Assembly (NCBI GenBank): GCA_003388505.1
Contig: QQVO01000033.1
Coordinates: forward strand, 1-64,000
Direction of reading: 5' to 3'
Length of the DNA stretch: 64,000 nucleotides
From: Planctomycetota bacterium
GTDB lineage: Bacteria > Planctomycetota > Planctomycetia > Planctomycetales > Planctomycetaceae
Under the pieces are notes generated by a model. It was not told where the DNA came from. It made no database searches and saw only the letters and a program-made list of their open reading frames with translations. Shown here in pieces: positions 23,352 to 33,302 of the stretch (positions are counted from its first letter, which is position 1; the number at the start of each line of letters is the position of its first letter). Made by a program: the position numbers and the translations under genes.

Positions 23352-23876
23352 AGCGCTCTGCAGAACTGTGTTTGTGCTGAGGGGACAGGTTGGCTGGAGT
23401 TCGTCATCTCCGGCACAGCAGCGGGTCGAGAGCCGAGAGTCAAGGGTCGAGGGGCCGAATCTTTGACGCGTCGTTGGATAGGTCTCTTGACTCTCAGCCC
23501 TCAATTCATCTTCGGTCATGCATTCCCGAATCAAGAATGGATTGTTCTTGGGACCATATACCGAACTGCAGAGCGCTATAGTGCCTTGTCAGGGCTCTAT
23601 TCTTGGGTTGGCTGGAGCGCAAATCCGCAAGAAACCCTGCGGGATTCGTGCATCCGAGCGAACCGCTTAACCCTCAATTGACGATTAACGGGCTACTCGT
23701 CCGCGCTTCAGGCTTGAGAGTAGGACGGCAGGGTGTGAAAATTGCGGTCAGATCCTTCAGGCCGATGGCGGAGTTTCCGTGACGCCGTTCGACCGGAGGC
23801 CGGCGGCAAACCGACTTGCGAGCAGGAGTTCTTGCGTTATCGAGCGTTACGACGTCTCCAGGCTGGCGGGCTGAGA
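23352..23876. repeat. Intergenic region with dispersed repeat family C, copy 4
   Basis: Repeat C lies at 23579-23696: AGTGCCTTGTCAGGGCTC, AGAAACCCTGCGGGATTCGT and a degenerate right end ending near GATTAACGGGCTACT. Just before it, GCAGAGCGCTATA recalls the right end of family A. The rest (23352-23578, 23697-23876) holds nothing recognisable. Confidence 0.6.
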
Positions 23877-24524
23877 ATGAACGAGTCCCACTATCTGCCT
23901 CCGAACCTCGCCGACACGACCTCCACGCGGCTGTTGCGGGGGGCGGCGGCGGGGGATGCGGCGGCGTGGCGGAAGCTGGTCGATGCCTATGGGCCGGTCG
24001 TCCGTTACTGGGGCCGCCGGGCCGGGCTTAACAAGGCCGACCTGGCCGATGTCTTTCAGGAGACGTTCCTGGCCGTCTCCAAAAGTCTGCCGAAGTTCGA
24101 GCGGCAGGACGGGCAGGCAAAGTTTCGCGCGTGGCTGAAGACCGTGACGCTCAGCAAGGTGAGCAACCACTACGAGCGGAAGGGGAAGCAGCCTGCGGCG
24201 TTCGGCGGCACGACGGCGATGGCGCAGATGGGCGACGTCGCGGCGGCGTTCGACGTCGAAGAATCGGGCGAGGAAGACGCCGCGCTGGCCCATTCGGAAG
24301 CGACCTTCCTCGTCCAGCGCACGCTGCAGGTCATCCGCCAGGAGTTCCGCGAGAACACCTGGCAGGCCTTTTACCGCACCACCATCGAAGGCTGCACGTC
24401 TTCGCAGGCCGCGGAGGAGCTTGGCATGACGGCACTGGCGGTGCGGAAGGCCAAGTCGCGCGTCATGCAGCGGCTGAAAGACGCGCTCGACGGGCAGGCC
24501 GCAGATCCGCCTCAATCGGTCTGA
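23877..24524 (+). CDS. ECF sigma factor of the planctomycete kinase-linked type
   Basis: This is 215 residues from ATG 23877. Region 2 is TSTRLLRGAAAGDAAAWRKLVDAYGPVVRYWGRRAGLNKADLADVFQETFLAV, followed by WLKTVTLSKVSNHYERKG. Region 4 has WQAFYRTTIEGCTSSQAAEELGMTALAVRKAKSRVMQRLK. Between them is a longer acidic linker (EESGEEDAALAHS). It should direct RNA polymerase to an alternative promoter class. No anti-sigma gene is adjacent; instead a secreted protein, and then a kinase with an anti-sigma-like zinc finger, follow on the same strand. This arrangement matches the ECF/Ser-Thr-kinase pairs described in Planctomycetes. Confidence 0.9.
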   Translation: MNESHYLPPNLADTTSTRLLRGAAAGDAAAWRKLVDAYGPVVRYWGRRAGLNKADLADVFQETFLAVSKSLPKFERQDGQAKFRAWLKTVTLSKVSNHYERKGKQPAAFGGTTAMAQMGDVAAAFDVEESGEEDAALAHSEATFLVQRTLQVIRQEFRENTWQAFYRTTIEGCTSSQAAEELGMTALAVRKAKSRVMQRLKDALDGQAADPPQSV

Positions 24525-25711: not shown

Positions 25712-25914
25712 GGTCCGTGAGTATGGACGCCCCCGACGGGTGGTGACTTCATGCAGTTTAATTGCTCTGTGCTACACCGCCCCCAACCTAGGCCGATCGA
25801 CCACCCTTCCCACGCCCCGGGGAGCGGGCCAACCCGGGGCGTGTTTCTTCTTGTCTGGGAACCGTTTGCGGCAGCGGAAACACATCGCGCGCCGTCGGTT
25901 GCGCCGATTCTCGG

Positions 25915-25943
25915 AAAAACTGTCACACGCTCCGGTTCTATCT
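25915..25943 (+). promoter_or_regulatory. Shared upstream motif, copy 2 (candidate ECF promoter)
   Basis: TGTCACACGCTCCGGTTCT, preceded by five A and one C, lies 75-103 nt upstream of the kinase ATG. It differs from the copy at 24602-24630 by one base in this core. The rest of the 25712-26017 gap shows no gene. Confidence 0.5.
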
Positions 25944-26017
25944 CCTGGACCGGGCGGCCTGACGCTGCTCGCCTGCGAACATCTGTCGTGCGAAGATGTG
26001 AATCCGAGGAACCAACC

Positions 26018-29000
26018 ATGACCGTCAAGCAATGCTGCACCGATCGGGAACTGAGCGACTTCGATCTGGGGGAACTGCGGGGAGACGAGTATGAGCAGAT
26101 CGCCCGGCACCTGGAGGAGTGCCCGAGTTGTGCGACGCGATTTGAGAACCTGCCCGAGCAGGCCGACCCGGTGAGAGAGCATCTGCGGCTGTCGTTGCCG
26201 GAAGAGATCCTGGTCGACGACCCCGAACTGAAGCAGTTGTCCGAAAGGGCCGCCGCATTGCTGGACACGGGCCGGCCCGCCTCGGCTGAGACATCGCTGA
26301 TCGCGGCCGCGCGGCCGCAAGACCTGCAAGACGCGATCGCCGGGATGCTGAGTCCTCCCGAGTCGGAGGACGAACTGGGACGTCTCGGGGGTTACCGCGT
26401 GCAGGAAGTGCTTGGCGTGGGTGGGATGGGGATCGTCTTTCGGGCGGAGGATCCGGTGTTGCACCGCACCGTGGCGCTGAAAGTGATGAAGCCTGCGATC
26501 GCCTCCGACGCGGCGGCGCGTGAACGGTTTCTCCGCGAAGCGCGGGGGATGGCAGCGGTGGAGCACGATCACATCGTGACCATCCACCAGGTGGGAGAAG
26601 AGCGCGACGTGCCGTTTCTGGCGATGCCGCTGCTTAAAGGAGAGTCCCTCTCCGCGCGATTGCAGCGTGAAGGGCGATTGGAGAGCGGCGAAGCACTGCG
26701 GATTACCGCCGAGGCGGCCCGCGGACTGGCGGCTGCGCACACCCAGGGACTGGTCCATCGGGATATCAAGCCGGACAACATCTGGTTGGAGGAGGGAACG
26801 GGGCGGGTCAAGATCCTCGACTTCGGACTGGCTCGGGCCGTCGACGCGCCGTCCGAGGTGACGCAGTCGGGTCAGGTGCTCGGCACGGCCTCGTATCTGT
26901 CACCAGAGCAGGCAAGTGGAGAGACGGTTGACGCGCGAAGCGACCTGTTCAGCCTGGGGGTCACGCTCTACCAGATGCTGACCGGTCGGCGGCCTTTCGA
27001 TCGTCCGAGCCTGATTGCGACGCTCAAAGCAATCGGCGCCGACGAACCACAACGGCTGGATGAGGCCGATTCTGAAACACCACCGGGTGTTCTTCCACTC
27101 GTCGGGCGGTTGCTGGAAAAGAATCCGGAATCACGGTTTCAGACGGCCGAAGAGGTGGTGCAGGCGATCGAGGATGTCCGAAGCACGGACGAGCGGCCGC
27201 GTGTCGCATCGGCAGCCGGCGTGGTTCCGCCCCGCAAGCGGTTGCTGGTCGCCGCGTCCGGTTTGCTGGCCGCCGTGCTGCTGGCCGGGATCTTTGTGAT
27301 CGTGCGGGACAAGGACGGCAATCCCATCGCCCGGCTGTTCTTCCCGGACGGCGCCTCGGCGGATGTCTCTCGGGAGGGTGAGGAAGCGCAGCCCGCACCG
27401 GTTGTGCCGCATCCCGCAGTCGTCTCAACCGATCCCGACTACGAACATCGTCCCTGGCTGCCCGAGGGACTCGTGGCAGTCATCGGAGACGAGCGCGGGC
27501 GGCATTGGGGGCGGCGCGACGGGGTGGGCGGCTCGGCCATCAATGGGTTCGAGGTGAGCCCGGATGGGGCAACGCTCGCGACCGGTGATCAGCACGGCGT
27601 ACATCTCTGGGAGATTGCCACGCTGCAGGAGCAGGCGTTTGTTCCCACACCGACCGGGCCGGTCGCCTATTCGCCCGATGGACGCCTGCTGGCGACCGGC
27701 AGCGGGAACCGGCTTGTCGTCTACGAAGTTTCGGGCGCCGAACTGCGGCCGATCGTCGACCGCGAGATCTATCCGGCCGAGACGACCGTTTTCTCGGTCG
27801 CGTTCTACGACGACGGCAAGCGTTTGATCACCGCATCGCACAACGAGTTCCGTCTCTGGGACATGACGGGAGACGAACCACGTCTGGCAAACTCGATTGG
27901 ACACTTGGGCGCGGGCGCCCCGGTGGCGGTCTCCCCTGACGGTAGAACGCTTGCCTCGATGTCGGCGGAAGACACGATCCAGCTGTGGGACATTGCGGGC
28001 GAAGCTCTCCGGGAGACTGTGCTCTTGGAAGGTCACGAAGCGCCCGTTACGTCGCTGATGTTTGCTCCCGACGGCAAGACGCTCGCCTCGGGCAGCCGTG
28101 ATGACACCGTACGAATCTGGGATCTGAACGGTGCGGAACTGCACAAGCTGCGGCCGTTCGAGCACGCCGGCGGGCAAAACCATAGCGTCTCCTTCTCTCC
28201 AGATGGACGCTACCTCGCCGCCAGCCTGGATGGCGGCGACCGACTGCAGGTGTGCCTGTTCGATCGGGACGATCCGACGTATTCGATCAAGACGTTCATC
28301 GAGGCACGGCAGGGACAACTCGAATTCAGTCCGGACGGCAAGACTCTGCTCGTCGGTCAACAGTCCGGACTGGTGCGATTGTTCGACGTCTCGGGCCAGC
28401 CGCGCGAACTCCACGAACCTTCCAGTCTGCTGCCGGGGCCGGGGAGTGTGGCGTACTGTCGTGATGGGAAGACTCTCGCCACCGTCGGTCCCGACCGGAA
28501 AGTTCATTTGTGGGACGTCTCGGAACGGCTGCCGACGTTGGAAACCGTTCTGAGCGAAGAACTGCCCAGCAGCGTGAGTCCTCGGTTGCGCTGCTCTCCC
28601 GACGGCCGCTGGCTGGTTGGAGGAGGGGACGTCGTATGGGATCTGTCAGGCGACCAACCACGGTCGGTCGCGATGCCGTCGTACCACAGGTTCGCCTTCG
28701 CAGCCGTTGACGGCGAGCTGGCCACGCTGGGAGACGGTCAACTGCGAGTCTGGGACATGAGTGGAGACGAGCCTGTGGAGCAGTTCGCACAGGAATTGCC
28801 GGAAGGCACTGATCTCCTCGCATTCTCGCCTGACGGAGATCTTCTGGTCTCCGCAGTGGAGGGGTCGAAACAGGCAACCATCTGGCGGGTTGCCGAAAGT
28901 GCGATTGAGCAGGGCGCGACCTTGGAAACCCGTCCGCTGAGAGACCTCTCCTTTACAACAGATGGTCGGCTCATCACGCCCAAGCATTACGGCCCAACGG

Positions 29001-29275
29001 GAGCCGATGTCTGGGATGTGCGCGGGTCGGAGGCTCGACTGTTGGACGAGTTGCCGACATCTTACACACTCAGCGTCACTCCCATCGACGAGGATCGTTT
29101 CCTCACCAGCGAAGAGACAGGCCGGGTCACGGAGTGGAGGGATGGGCAGCCACAGCGCGAGTGGCAGTTGCCGGGCACCGTGCACGACCTGTCTGTCTCT
29201 CCCGACGGCGGCTACCTCGCAACCGCCAACGGGAATGGAACGGTCTACATTCTTCGACTGGATGGGAATCCGTAA
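26018..29275 (+). CDS. Membrane Ser/Thr protein kinase with N-terminal zinc finger and C-terminal WD40 repeats
   Basis: This is 1085 residues from ATG 26018 (AGGA 7 nt upstream); the frame is open to 25751 but the extra 89 codons look non-coding. Residues 8-50 are an anti-sigma-like zinc finger with HLEECPSC. The kinase domain (about 126-390) has the glycine loop GVGGMG, VALK with K155, HRDIKPDN with D249, DFG (268-270) and YLSPEQ. One membrane span lies at about 409-428. The rest is an extracytoplasmic WD40 propeller with repeated SPDGxxLA and WDxxG units (for example FAPDGKTLASGSRDDTVRIWD). It probably senses something outside the membrane and signals to the ECF factor encoded 1.5 kb upstream; the target is an inference. 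Confidence 0.92.
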   Translation: MTVKQCCTDRELSDFDLGELRGDEYEQIARHLEECPSCATRFENLPEQADPVREHLRLSLPEEILVDDPELKQLSERAAALLDTGRPASAETSLIAAARPQDLQDAIAGMLSPPESEDELGRLGGYRVQEVLGVGGMGIVFRAEDPVLHRTVALKVMKPAIASDAAARERFLREARGMAAVEHDHIVTIHQVGEERDVPFLAMPLLKGESLSARLQREGRLESGEALRITAEAARGLAAAHTQGLVHRDIKPDNIWLEEGTGRVKILDFGLARAVDAPSEVTQSGQVLGTASYLSPEQASGETVDARSDLFSLGVTLYQMLTGRRPFDRPSLIATLKAIGADEPQRLDEADSETPPGVLPLVGRLLEKNPESRFQTAEEVVQAIEDVRSTDERPRVASAAGVVPPRKRLLVAASGLLAAVLLAGIFVIVRDKDGNPIARLFFPDGASADVSREGEEAQPAPVVPHPAVVSTDPDYEHRPWLPEGLVAVIGDERGRHWGRRDGVGGSAINGFEVSPDGATLATGDQHGVHLWEIATLQEQAFVPTPTGPVAYSPDGRLLATGSGNRLVVYEVSGAELRPIVDREIYPAETTVFSVAFYDDGKRLITASHNEFRLWDMTGDEPRLANSIGHLGAGAPVAVSPDGRTLASMSAEDTIQLWDIAGEALRETVLLEGHEAPVTSLMFAPDGKTLASGSRDDTVRIWDLNGAELHKLRPFEHAGGQNHSVSFSPDGRYLAASLDGGDRLQVCLFDRDDPTYSIKTFIEARQGQLEFSPDGKTLLVGQQSGLVRLFDVSGQPRELHEPSSLLPGPGSVAYCRDGKTLATVGPDRKVHLWDVSERLPTLETVLSEELPSSVSPRLRCSPDGRWLVGGGDVVWDLSGDQPRSVAMPSYHRFAFAAVDGELATLGDGQLRVWDMSGDEPVEQFAQELPEGTDLLAFSPDGDLLVSAVEGSKQATIWRVAESAIEQGATLETRPLRDLSFTTDGRLITPKHYGPTGADVWDVRGSEARLLDELPTSYTLSVTPIDEDRFLTSEETGRVTEWRDGQPQREWQLPGTVHDLSVSPDGGYLATANGNGTVYILRLDGNP

Positions 29276-29424: not shown

Positions 29425-31452
29425 TTACGTGCCGATGGCCAGTTCCGTTTCCGGCGCTGCCTCGGTTTCCGGGGTGACCGACTCGGCGGGCGCTGAAAAG
29501 ATGGGAGTGATCCGCAGGTCATCCAGAGCCTTGAAAGCGCTGCGAAGATCCGCTTCCAAGTCTTGCAGTTCCGGATTCTCGTTCGTCGGCACCAGAAAAT
29601 GGCTGCAACCAAGATTCTTGAAGCGAATGGCGTCGAAGATCACTTCCCGCAGCGGGCAGTGTCTGCGATATGTGGAAAGGGCGCCCAGGACCACCTTGTG
29701 CCGCGGATAGCTGCCTGTCGCCAGCGCCAACTGACAACTCTTGAACATCAGATCAACGAAAACGTCGTTGCCTGACGGCGGTCCGACAATCGGACTGACA
29801 TAAACACCGTCTGCCTGAAGGTCTGCCAGCGCCTGCAGCGGCCGGTCGCCTTTGAGTCCCTGGGGCGCGGAATAGATCGGTACTCCGACGACTTTCGCCC
29901 ACCCCTTCTGACCGAAGACCATGCGCGCTTGATTCGGCGTCAGCTCATACGCCTCATAGGCGGATGGAACCGGGGCAAGCAGCTCAACTTCGCCGGCCAG
30001 CGCATAGTCGCCGCGACCCAGAACCGCAGCGACTCCCGGATGACTGGACAGCGTCGTGCCGAACCAGTTTGTGACCAGCTCATCCAGATCGAGTGGATAC
30101 AGGTCGCTGACGCACAGCGTCGCGTACTCGTGACCGGCCTGGTCGGTCAGCACGATCTTTTCGCCGACAGAAAACTGCTCTGACCGGTCCACCTGCAGAA
30201 TCAGGGGCATGGTCCACGGGAGGTCGCTCAAGAGCCGGTTGCGCCGCAGCACGCTGTCGAGTTCGTCGCGCCCCATGAACCCCGTCAGCGGTGAACATAA
30301 GCCGCTCCCGATCTGCGCACAGTCCAGTAACTCCGCGGGAGACAACGCGAGCCGCCGGAGCCCGGCGACACTCACGCCTGACGCGTCCCTCGGTCCTCTT
30401 CCGACCAGCATGCCGCCGTGAGGTTCCACCAGGGACGAGAGGGGCGTTCCTGAGAATCGGACGCGCTTCCAACGTGACGTCTGCTCGTATTCATTGATGA
30501 CGCGGCGAACCATCATTGCGGCGCCGACAGGGTAGTCTCCGACGGCCGTTTCAGCCGCGAGCACGAGCCCGTCCGCACCGTCCACCAGTGTATTGAAGAC
30601 GTCGTTGACCTCGGCGCGGGTCGGCGTGGGAGCCGTGATCATCGACTCCATCAGGTTGGTTGCGACGTAGACGGGAATGTCCGCGTCCCTGGCGTACCGA
30701 ATGATCTCCTTCTGGACGATCGGGATCCGCTCAATGTTGACCTGCCGCGACAGATCCCCGCGGTCGATCAGCAGCGCGTCGGACTGATCGGCAATCTCCG
30801 GGAGATTCGCGAGCCCGTTGAGACATTCGATCTTCGAGACGATTTTCGTCGATTCATGCGTCAGCGCCCTGACGGCATCGACGTCTGACGCCCGATTGGC
30901 AAAGGACAGCGCCACGTGCCGCACGCCCATTTCGGTGCCGATCACCAATGCCTGGCGATCCTTCTCGGTCAGCGGGGACAGCGGGATCTCCCGCTCCAGC
31001 ACGGTGACAGCCTTGCTCTGGCCGATCGTACCGCCGTTCAGAACGCGGACAACGACGCCTTCCGCCTCCCGCGCAACAACTCGCACGAGCACATCGGCGT
31101 CGATGCGAATCAGGTCTCCCACCACCAGCAAGTCGACGACTCCCGGCGGATAGAGGCTCATGCAGTTCGCATCGCCCGCCAACTGATCGCGCGACAATCG
31201 CATCGTGTGATTCTCGCGGACTGACACGCTGCCCGCCTGCAAGATGCTCGTCCTGACCTGTGCGCCCTCGGTGTCCAGACAGATCGGCACGTCGGTGCGG
31301 GCCTGGATGAATTGGACGACCTGCGCCACGTCCTCCGCCCGCGTGTGCGACAAGTTGATGCGGAACAGACTCACGCCCAGTTCCGCAAGCCGCGTGATCA
31401 CATGGTCATTCATCGACGACGGGCCCAGCGTGGACCAGATCTCTTTCTTCAT
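29425..31452 (-). CDS. Pyruvate kinase-like/ATP-sulfurylase-like fusion protein
   Basis: This is 675 residues from ATG 31452. Residues 1-325 follow pyruvate kinase: KKEIWSTLGPSS, FRINLSHTR (R31), LDTEGAQVRT (normally DTKGPEIRT), SKIE (K207, E209), RGDL (D233) and PTRAEVNDV plus ETAVGDYP. The PK C-terminal allosteric domain is missing. Residues about 338-628 follow sulfate adenylyltransferase: EPHGGMLVGR, CSPLTGFMG, HPGVAAVLGRGDYALAGEVELL, YELTPNQARMVFGQKGWAKVVG and PLREVIFDAIRFKNLGCSHFLV. The ATP-binding QTRNPxHRxHE is replaced by VPIYSAPQGLKGD and GRDHAG by PTNENP, so this half should not make APS. A regulatory or moonlighting pyruvate kinase is the best guess. The adenylate-kinase-like gene lies upstream on the same strand. 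Confidence 0.85.
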   Translation of the reverse strand: MKKEIWSTLGPSSMNDHVITRLAELGVSLFRINLSHTRAEDVAQVVQFIQARTDVPICLDTEGAQVRTSILQAGSVSVRENHTMRLSRDQLAGDANCMSLYPPGVVDLLVVGDLIRIDADVLVRVVAREAEGVVVRVLNGGTIGQSKAVTVLEREIPLSPLTEKDRQALVIGTEMGVRHVALSFANRASDVDAVRALTHESTKIVSKIECLNGLANLPEIADQSDALLIDRGDLSRQVNIERIPIVQKEIIRYARDADIPVYVATNLMESMITAPTPTRAEVNDVFNTLVDGADGLVLAAETAVGDYPVGAAMMVRRVINEYEQTSRWKRVRFSGTPLSSLVEPHGGMLVGRGPRDASGVSVAGLRRLALSPAELLDCAQIGSGLCSPLTGFMGRDELDSVLRRNRLLSDLPWTMPLILQVDRSEQFSVGEKIVLTDQAGHEYATLCVSDLYPLDLDELVTNWFGTTLSSHPGVAAVLGRGDYALAGEVELLAPVPSAYEAYELTPNQARMVFGQKGWAKVVGVPIYSAPQGLKGDRPLQALADLQADGVYVSPIVGPPSGNDVFVDLMFKSCQLALATGSYPRHKVVLGALSTYRRHCPLREVIFDAIRFKNLGCSHFLVPTNENPELQDLEADLRSAFKALDDLRITPIFSAPAESVTPETEAAPETELAIGT

Positions 31453-31995
31453 CGACCGAGCCTCTGCAAGAAATGATAAACGTTTGGACGTCCGTTGAAT
31501 GAGGTGATCCTCCCTGGCCGTGACAAGTTCACTCTGCATCACACGGCAGCGAAACTCCTACAGGAGTCTGCTGACGACGATCCGCCTCGTTCCGGTCTGA
31601 TGCACCGCGCTGCGACTCATTGGTTTGCAGCAGTCTCACCCGTGGCAACTTCACTCGGAGTTGTTTCCAGGTGTTTCGGGCTGTTTCCAAAGGGATACAC
31701 CCGCTCTCGAAATCGCTGTTTCCACTCCGCAAGCTGCGGCGCGGAACGCGAATCGCCACTTGCGGTCCCACGAAGTCTTTCTGACGGATTCCCCTTCACA
31801 GGGAGGGTTGGGGGTGAACAGTTTGTGGCAACGACGCCTATTCCGCCGCAGCGAGCGCACACCGGATCCATTGCGACTTGGAACGCTGCCCACGGAACTC
31901 ACGAATTCTTCACGGAATTCGCCGGTGAAGATTCAGAATTGCAAAGAGCGTGCCGGGATCAGCTTCCGGCCGGATCGACGAAGCTCGAACCGGTT
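31453..31995. other. Intergenic, nothing recognised
   Basis: About 540 bases lie upstream of the pyruvate-kinase-like gene. Overlapping frames on both strands (for example 31495-32085) have no family resemblance and run into the family A repeat. The region must hold the promoter of 29425-31452 if that gene is not co-transcribed with the gene at 33302. Confidence 0.4.
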
Positions 31996-32100
31996 TATAG
32001 CGCTTTGCAAATCAGTGTTGGCGATCTGTCTCGCGGATTCTCGTCCTCGACAGTCCAAACACCGCTCGACGCGGACACATGGTAGAGCAATTTGCTCTAA
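31996..32100 (-). repeat. 105-bp YTAG-bounded repeat (family A), copy 3
   Basis: Read on the minus strand it begins TTAGAGCAAATTGCTCTACC and ends GATTTGCAAAGCGCTATA. Its TAG (32097-32099) is the stop codon of the adenylate-kinase-like gene. The orientation is the same as the gene it follows. Confidence 0.82.
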
Positions 32101-33302
32101 CGGCGGATCCGCGACCCGGTGAAGCGGATCTGGAATCGGTAGATGCACTTGGTCGAGCAGGTGATCCGACCCGTCTGCAAGTCAACGCTTTCCGGAATCT
32201 CGGCGAGGTTGACGTCGGCCACTGCCCGATATCCGCGTTCGGCGAAAATGTCGATCATCATCGCCAGGGCCAGCGGGTCGTCGAGCAACTTGTCCTCGGA
32301 ATTCACAATGGCCATTCCGGGGATGGAGTGCCGGGCAACGATCGGCATGAAACGTTCGTCGATCAATCGGATGACGTCGTGAAAAAGCTGCCGGTTTTCA
32401 AGTTCGTAGCTGTCCATGCGTTTGACGAGTTCCTGCCGGGCATGCGTGACCAGCTCACTGGCGAGTGGCAGGTGCCGGACGGCGTCGAATGTCTCGGGGT
32501 CGAGTTCCAGCGACGACTGATAATCGAGTTCCCGTCGGATATTGCGTTCGACGCTCTCAAGGTCTCCCTGCGCGTTGATGAAGTGATAGTGAAACACCTC
32601 CTTGAGCGACTGCAGCGCTGCCCAGGTTTGCTCCTTGAAAACGCGATACCGTCGTCTGGCCGTTTCTGGATCCTGATCGGTTGCCCGTTCTTCGAGCAAC
32701 TCGACATCGCCTTCCGCGCGTGCTCTGGCATTCCGTTCGGCGACTTCGCGGCCCCGTTTCAGTTGACGTTCGATGCTGGTCTTTTCGTCAACAAACAGGA
32801 CCATCACGTGAATCGTCGGCTTGCGAAACTGGGTCGCCAGCGGCGTCTCGTGATATTCGCGATAAAGCTGGTTCATCTTGAGAACCAGCCGCTTGAGGCA
32901 TTCCACCTGAACCTGGGTCCGCGGGAAACCGTCGAGCAGGCAACCGTCGCGGTATTCTTCCTCCAGAAGCTTCCGGAAGACGAGGCCGACGACTTCGCGG
33001 TCGCCCACCATCCCGCCGGCCTGCTTGATGCGCCGCGCTTCGGGAGTGTTCAACAGGGAACTCACGACGATCGGAGCGCATGTCAGATCGCGAGCCTGCA
33101 TGATGAACTCGGTGTTGGTGCCCTTCCCGGCTCCAGGCGCACCGCCGAGCAGAATCAGTTCCTTCGAAAAGCGAAGGTTTTCGTGTCCGAACTCGGCTTC
33201 GAGTTCATTCCACACGTTTGTGAAGATGACCTGGGCGTCCTTGACCTCGAGGGTTTCGACAGAACCCGGAGCAGCCTGCGGCTTGTCTTGTCCACCTTCC
33301 AT
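32097..33302 (-). CDS. Adenylate kinase-like protein with long C-terminal extension
   Basis: This is 401 residues. The P-loop GGAPGAGKGTNT (53-64) and LLDGFPRTQ (122-130) are the classic adenylate kinase signatures. VVSSLLNTPEA and GGMVGDREVVGLV fit the AMP-binding part, and VMVLFVDEKTSIERQLKRGRE the following strand and LID hinge. The core is preceded by about 45 residues and followed by about 180 residues (from about 215) with no family I recognise, so it is nearly twice the length of ordinary Adk. It is probably a nucleoside monophosphate kinase. The pyruvate kinase-like fusion gene lies about 645 bases downstream on the same strand, which links two ATP/ADP-handling folds. Confidence 0.85.
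   Translation of the reverse strand: MEGGQDKPQAAPGSVETLEVKDAQVIFTNVWNELEAEFGHENLRFSKELILLGGAPGAGKGTNTEFIMQARDLTCAPIVVSSLLNTPEARRIKQAGGMVGDREVVGLVFRKLLEEEYRDGCLLDGFPRTQVQVECLKRLVLKMNQLYREYHETPLATQFRKPTIHVMVLFVDEKTSIERQLKRGREVAERNARARAEGDVELLEERATDQDPETARRRYRVFKEQTWAALQSLKEVFHYHFINAQGDLESVERNIRRELDYQSSLELDPETFDAVRHLPLASELVTHARQELVKRMDSYELENRQLFHDVIRLIDERFMPIVARHSIPGMAIVNSEDKLLDDPLALAMMIDIFAERGYRAVADVNLAEIPESVDLQTGRITCSTKCIYRFQIRFTGSRIRR

Follow-up and report, generated by a model that had tools for sequence, protein, structure and literature searches.

A pyruvate kinase-ATP sulfurylase fusion family, with a planctomycete member whose sulfurylase half has lost its active-site motifs

Results

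Domain layout of the fusion gene

The stretch of DNA analysed here, referred to as the window, comprises 64,000 nucleotides from a member of the Planctomycetaceae (contig QQVO01000033.1, assembly GCA_003388505.1). Its minus strand carries a gene in which a pyruvate kinase (PK) barrel is followed, in the same frame, by a degenerate ATP sulfurylase (ATPS). Residues in the list are numbered over 705 amino acids unless stated otherwise.

29425..31452 (-): fusion gene, encoding 675 aa when read from the ATG, its likely start
30520..31449 (-): PK barrel, PF00224 (Pfam E 4.4e-72, residues 32-341 of 705)
30754..30834 (-): PK catalytic stretch with Lys237, Glu239 and Asp263 (207, 209 and 233 in 675-aa numbering)
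30610..30621 (-): PK TRAE motif
29977..30426 (-): PUA_2 (PF14306), the N-terminal part of the sulfurylase (Pfam E 2.3e-33, residues 373-522)
29575..29952 (-): degenerate ATPS catalytic domain, partial PF01747 (E 1.3e-14, residues 531-656)
29842..29886 (-): site of the lost [FL]H[TSG]RNxxHxxH motif, residues 553-567
29566..29595 (-): site of the lost GR[DN]HxG motif, residues 650-659
29425..29496 (-): short, unrelated, low-confidence end, in place of the C-terminal segment kept by other dead members

At its full length the open reading frame spans 29425-31542 and encodes 705 amino acids from a GTG start. The ATG at 31452 is more likely to be used, since it aligns with the first codon of a close relative, L043, and the original prediction, made from the sequence alone, thus had the right coordinates for the gene (29425-31452).

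That prediction of a PK fused to a sulfurylase describes a real protein. Pfam places PF00224, PF14306 and PF01747 in one frame, with the PK barrel scoring 243.4 bits against a cut-off of 30 and the PF01747 match covering 124 of the 212 model positions. Sequence searches of the PDB match PKs with the first half (top match 7oo1, E 1.3e-56) and sulfurylases with the C-terminal half (8a8d, E 1.9e-45; 1v47, E 6.5e-40), so that profile searches and PDB sequence matches both support the sulfurylase assignment. Scores with the NCBIfam PK and sulfurylase models fall short of the full-length cut-offs, the full-length PK models (TIGR01064) aligning over the first ~340 positions only. The PK half was said to lack the allosteric C-domain, and no PK C-domain family is found in the window protein at E<=1 in the Pfam search. 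The GC content of the gene (0.618; GC3 0.758) is similar to that of neighbouring genes. Beside the fusion, and convergent with it, lies a WD40-repeat Ser/Thr kinase of 1174 aa (25751-29275, +), which has a sigma-70-like factor shortly upstream (23742-24524, +).

A widespread family

When species genomes were scanned with a four-row alignment, 188 relatives came up; the best 80 of these, which were returned, all reach both halves at 36-53% identity (one, L111, is cut by a contig end), which rules out that the window fusion is unique or a chimera. By record title, the best 80 of the 188 come from more than ten phyla, with records labelled Pseudomonadota, Omnitrophota, Planctomycetota, Chloroflexi, Nitrospina, Acidobacteria, Gemmatimonadetes, Verrucomicrobia, Elusimicrobia, Marinimicrobia, Actinomycetes, Bacteroidetes and candidate phyla. 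MAGs account for many of the relatives, and the isolates include Methyloversatilis universalis, Mesorhizobium amorphae, Sinorhizobium saheli and Thauera sp. 2A1. Within the phylum of the window, the full protein matches 2 of 392 genomes at E<=1e-60, namely its own and G348 (46% identity). The C-terminal half is matched in 48 of 59 near genomes (its own included), and the subset of those frames that was read consists of ordinary sulfurylases or sulfurylase-APS kinases.

Plasmid records hold two full-length relatives, from Ensifer adhaerens and Sinorhizobium chiapasense, both on plasmids typed as conjugative. Viral contigs gave 119 pattern matches, none of them a relative of the fusion, and a viral origin was rejected. 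One Nitrospina bin (prefix JABHBK) holds two fusion copies on different contigs, L095 and L099.

The search for this domain layout thus shows it to be common, but we found no description of a PK-ATP sulfurylase fusion in the open-access literature, as represented by titles and the beginnings of abstracts, and within that scope the claim that no enzyme of this design has been characterised holds. The singularity implied for the window protein fares less well: the fusion and the dead sulfurylase are there, but the gene is no isolated oddity and belongs to a wide, mostly motif-intact family. We define this family by the signatures DTEGAQ, IDRGD and ATN and by both halves in one frame, and the window protein qualifies. 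Family-wide comparisons used an alignment of 83 distinct rows, a few of which nearly duplicate one another: the window, L037, L040, L041 and 79 scan loci, the eightieth (L061) being left out because it shares a contig with L037.

The PK active site

The catalytic Lys207, Glu209 and Asp233 predicted for the window PK are present; in a 62-row alignment (675-aa numbering), no row departs from K207 or E209, and 90% or more keep D233. The predicted TRAE motif was also found. The window protein has all the counterparts of rabbit PK R72, N74, S76, D112, R119, K269, E271, D295 and T327, the residues for PEP, Mg, K+ and ADP, and these positions are near-constant over the 83 rows, dead rows included, with few exceptions. 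E92, A94, Q95, D260 and N296 are family-wide and differ from six ordinary PKs aligned alongside, all of the Lys117 type; four of the five fall within the scan patterns, CLDTEGAQ and YVATNL[LM]E, and are biased by them, D260 being the one outside.

Family position 95 corresponds to rabbit PK position 117 and is Gln in 82 of the 83 rows (the other has a gap), so the window PK has neither the Glu117 nor the Lys117 of the bacterial and eukaryotic classes. In those classes, according to two papers (PMC4374775; PMC4284704), Glu117 denotes K+-dependent and Lys117 K+-independent enzymes, Thr113 and Lys114 usually accompany Glu117, and rare Ser and Arg at 117 are mentioned. The first paper also reports Gln117 among crenarchaeal PKs and a rabbit E117A mutant that was still K+-dependent (PMC4374775). 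The site of the fusion family reads Thr/Ser113-Glu114-Gln117, and since rabbit E117A remained K+-dependent, we predict that the fusion PK is probably K+-dependent too.

In comparison with ordinary pyruvate kinase, the fusion shares the barrel and B-domain fold and the residues for PEP, ADP, Mg and K+, but lacks the C-domain, carries Glu114 and Gln117 with Thr or Ser113, and has Asp for Ala before RGD and Asn for Gln after AT. It joins known domains in a combination for which we found no description, and its PK site is distinctive.

The sulfurylase half

Homology of the window protein to ATPS extends over the PUA_2 and catalytic domains, and the frame motifs said to be retained (EPHGG, SPLTGFM and LREVIFDAIRFKNLGCSHF) are in place. 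The loss of both active-site motifs is borne out: where intact relatives have [FL]H[TSG]RNxxHxxH and GR[DN]HxG, the window has VPIYSAPQGLK and PTNENP. We take QTRNPxHRxHE and GRDHAG to be the canonical forms of these motifs, and presume their catalytic roles.

Both motifs are complete in 74 of the 83 rows (drawn from the best 80 of the 188 relatives plus the extra rows), and H555, R557, N558, H561, H564, G652, R653, H655 and G657 each occur in 74/74 of these intact rows. His replaces the canonical first Gln of QTRN in all 74, and Thr or Ser replaces the Ala of GRDHAG in 66. The clearly dead rows number seven (the window, L042, L043, L048, L058, L077 and L078), and two more are partly changed (L059 and L102). 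How the pocket residues were lost varies among the dead rows; six of these retain a normal-length C-terminal segment with a changed ISGT motif, and the window copy lacks the segment. Set against archaeal/Thermus-type ATP sulfurylase (8a8d, 1v47), the intact relatives share the fold and, with the changes noted, both motifs, but they are fused to PK and have His for the first Gln, and the window copy is without both motifs and the C-terminal segment.

Single-chain AlphaFold2 models are confident for the window protein (pLDDT 87.0, pTM 0.79) and for an intact relative, L081 (pLDDT 89.8, pTM 0.76). In Foldseek, the matches of the intact model include both PKs and the sulfurylase 8a8d (TM 0.94 by target length), and all 50 matches listed for the window model are PKs. 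The models suggest that the dead half of the window protein has kept its fold while losing its catalytic residues.

Recurrent loss and unequal rates

The dead state of the sulfurylase is derived and recurrent. The dead group was defined by motifs before a tree of the 83 rows was built (short search, SH-aLRT support). In this tree the window groups with L042 and L043 (SH-aLRT 99), and the Thauera pair (SH-aLRT 100), L058 and L059 are placed elsewhere. Forcing the seven dead rows together gave a p-AU of 0.0115, and a single origin is rejected. We claim at least three losses, and not four, because the placement of L048 is uncertain.

With the tree fixed, the ratio of ATPS to PK tip length is 5.1 for the window and 2.2-30 over the seven dead rows, the value of 30 resting on a near-zero PK tip. 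Among intact rows (60 of 74 tips, PK length >0.05) the median is 0.79 and the maximum 2.59 (Mann-Whitney p 4.6e-9, kinship ignored), and the partly changed L059 and L102, at 1.63 and 1.05, are not markedly accelerated. Estimates of dN/dS for two dead pairs were 0.070 and 0.085 in PK and 0.136 and 0.240 in ATPS, as compared with 0.055-0.110 and 0.067-0.153 in three intact pairs (a fourth was saturated); these pairs exclude the window copy, whose relatives are all too distant. Together, the two measures indicate that the PK half is constrained and that the dead half is relaxed, yet not free. The window is the longest-branched dead copy, but its PK identity to ten intact references (0.599) resembles that of its dead sisters (0.608 and 0.610), and at 0.325 its PK tip is close in length to the median of intact rows, 0.264.

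Other sulfurylases in the same genomes

The genome of the window (6.78 Mb, 98.76% complete) contains one further PK and one further PF01747 sulfurylase, which carries QTRNPLHRAHE, each on another contig; one APS kinase and seven Sulfotransfer_3 matches also lie outside the window's contig. A separate PF01747 sulfurylase occurs in four of the six other dead-copy genomes as well, giving 5/7 dead against 2/23 intact genomes (p 0.0027, kinship ignored), the only comparison of gene content in which dead and intact copies clearly part; the intact sample covers 23 of the 74 loci, hand-picked for spread. The two Thauera genomes have CysN. When any other sulfurylase is counted (PF01747, or CysN over the curated cut-off), the figures are 7/7 and 16/23 (p 0.15, kinship ignored). 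Of the remaining seven intact genomes, G466 has a CysN just under the cut-off, G459 a partial one, and five have nothing near, so that in 5/23 the fusion is the only sulfurylase found by the PF01747 and CysN searches, genome gaps being possible.

The separate sulfurylases of the window genome and two relatives (L003, L011, L018) read GRKHAD at the canonical GRDHAG. Among the relatives of the window, L014 (G046:C35) is another dead-sulfurylase fusion, a sulfurylase-APS kinase with the degenerate motifs HADEPVHRAQE and GRDLAS.

Gene neighbourhoods

Neighbours were sought in all locus ORFs with HMMs seeded with genes that included Pfam-confirmed ones, and the counts are lower bounds, as many contigs end close by. 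An APS kinase of the PF01583 family lies within 3 kb in 41/74 intact loci, usually directly downstream (36 are within 600 bp), and in 2/9 changed loci; as a yardstick, seven genomes that were counted have 1 or 2 APS kinases each. A sulfotransferase lies within 3 kb in 41/74 intact and 6/9 changed loci. For the clearly dead rows alone, the proportion with APS kinase is 1/7 (p 0.052 by Fisher's test against the intact loci, kinship ignored) and that with sulfotransferase 6/7 (p 0.23, kinship ignored); the six apart from the window account for all of these (1/6 and 6/6). At the window locus the HMM search of ORFs found no APS kinase, sulfotransferase or exchanger gene.

A sodium/hydrogen exchanger (PF00999) lies within 3 kb of 20/83 fusions (15/74 intact, 5/9 changed; for example L043:12560-13825 and L077:13163-14335) and is perhaps relevant to a PK predicted to require K+. 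In 11 apparently rhizobial loci, a protein of ~349 aa without a Pfam match is directly upstream of the fusion (for example L064:8849-9898).

Near the window fusion is an adenylate-kinase-like gene (32097-33302, -; 401 aa, PF00406 at residues 54-226, with a C-terminal extension of ~150 aa that has no Pfam match), a candidate ATP-recycling partner of PK and sulfurylase that we judged incidental. The protein is found in 8/60 other genomes of the same family at 63-85% identity, 14-20 kb around it in four of those eight contain neither a fusion nor the other seven window genes tested, and a search of the ORFs at the fusion loci gave no match to it at E<=1e-3.

Discussion

We put at about even the chance that intact members of this family perform PEP-fuelled sulfate activation and that the window copy is an active PK with a dead sulfurylase scaffold. 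In such a scheme the intact sulfurylase half would make APS from ATP and sulfate, the APS kinase that is often the next gene would convert APS to PAPS with release of ADP, and a sulfotransferase, often nearby, would consume the PAPS. The fused PK would use PEP to regenerate ATP from the ADP of the APS kinase, and PEP would thereby help to pull an unfavourable pathway. PK is used in vitro for ATP regeneration, and GTP via CysN is another way of driving APS formation.

The formation of APS from ATP and sulfate is strongly unfavourable, and organisms are described as pulling it by pyrophosphatase, APS kinase or APS reduction (PMC13213808, PMC3734648), with the first two sometimes fused (PMC13213808). 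In multidomain PAPS synthases, sulfurylase is likewise joined to a reaction-pulling enzyme (APS kinase, plus pyrophosphatase in stramenopiles; PMC13213808). In the family described here, by contrast, the partner is PK, which would recycle ADP and not remove APS or PPi.

The PEP-fuelled reading is supported by the kept PK and sulfurylase residues, by the APS kinase and sulfotransferase neighbours and by the five of 23 genomes in which the fusion is the sole sulfurylase found. Against it, the search within 3 kb found no APS kinase at 33/74 intact loci (in some the contig stops nearby), the window locus lacks APS kinase, sulfotransferase and exchanger genes, and another sulfurylase in 16 of the 23 genomes means that the fusion is often not the only source of APS. 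Both active sites also carry family-wide changes, which could mean altered substrates.

As for the window protein itself, we think that it is probably an active PK to which a non-catalytic sulfurylase is joined as a scaffold. It would still run PEP + ADP to pyruvate + ATP, with the dead half serving as a folded scaffold or oligomerisation partner. There is a precedent in the APS kinase of Entamoeba histolytica, in which a dead sulfurylase-like domain is reported to stabilise the oligomer and raise activity, a similar layout occurring in Thiobacillus denitrificans (PMC13213808). Both systems retain a non-catalytic sulfurylase domain on a kinase; the active partner is APS kinase there and PK here, and our protein is known from single-chain models.

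The original prediction had cast the dead half as a ligand sensor. That it is an allosteric domain switching PK in response to, for example, a nucleotide or a sulfated product seems to us unlikely, although the usual C-domain of PK is missing and purifying selection still acts on the dead half in the two pairs measured. A sensor also has precedents, since published accounts describe a dead APS kinase domain of Penicillium sulfurylase that binds PAPS (PMC3734648) and the enhancement of kinase activity by the Entamoeba domain (PMC13213808); the latter, however, is a closer precedent for a scaffold or oligomer role than for a sensor. Pocket residues have gone in different ways among the dead rows, and an unsystematic look noticed no newly conserved pocket. 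The sensor role is further weakened because the window has lost its C-terminal segment and the residues presumed to hold ATP and sulfate.

We also think it improbable that the family performs different chemistry, with altered PK and sulfurylase sites that take substrates other than ADP and sulfate. The five family-wide PK residues (four of them pattern-biased) and the His and Thr/Ser changes in the sulfurylase motifs would fit this, but the classical PK ligand residues are kept, the neighbours are PF01583 APS kinases and sulfotransferase family genes, and no other sulfurylase was found in five of the 23 genomes sampled. Finally, we doubt that the window copy is a decaying orphan without a present role that lost its sulfurylase half first: it is long-branched, C-terminally truncated and without sulfation genes beside it in a genome that has another PK, sulfurylase and APS kinase, but its frame is open over 675-705 codons, its PK identity to intact references is like that of its dead sisters, its PK tip length is near the intact median, and the PK ligand residues are all retained.

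More broadly, and only tentatively, we propose a PEP-powered enzyme with its own class of PK site, present in many phyla and often in sulfation clusters, whose sulfurylase died independently in several lineages, that of the window included, and there may have become a non-catalytic scaffold or controller of PK. If true, a natural PK fusion would be another solution to the problem of unfavourable APS synthesis, would set apart a class of sulfation clusters in little-studied phyla, and would bring the classes of PK site in bacteria to three. That one half has died repeatedly while the other is kept amounts to a natural experiment on the purpose of a fused partner, for which live and dead versions both exist for comparison.
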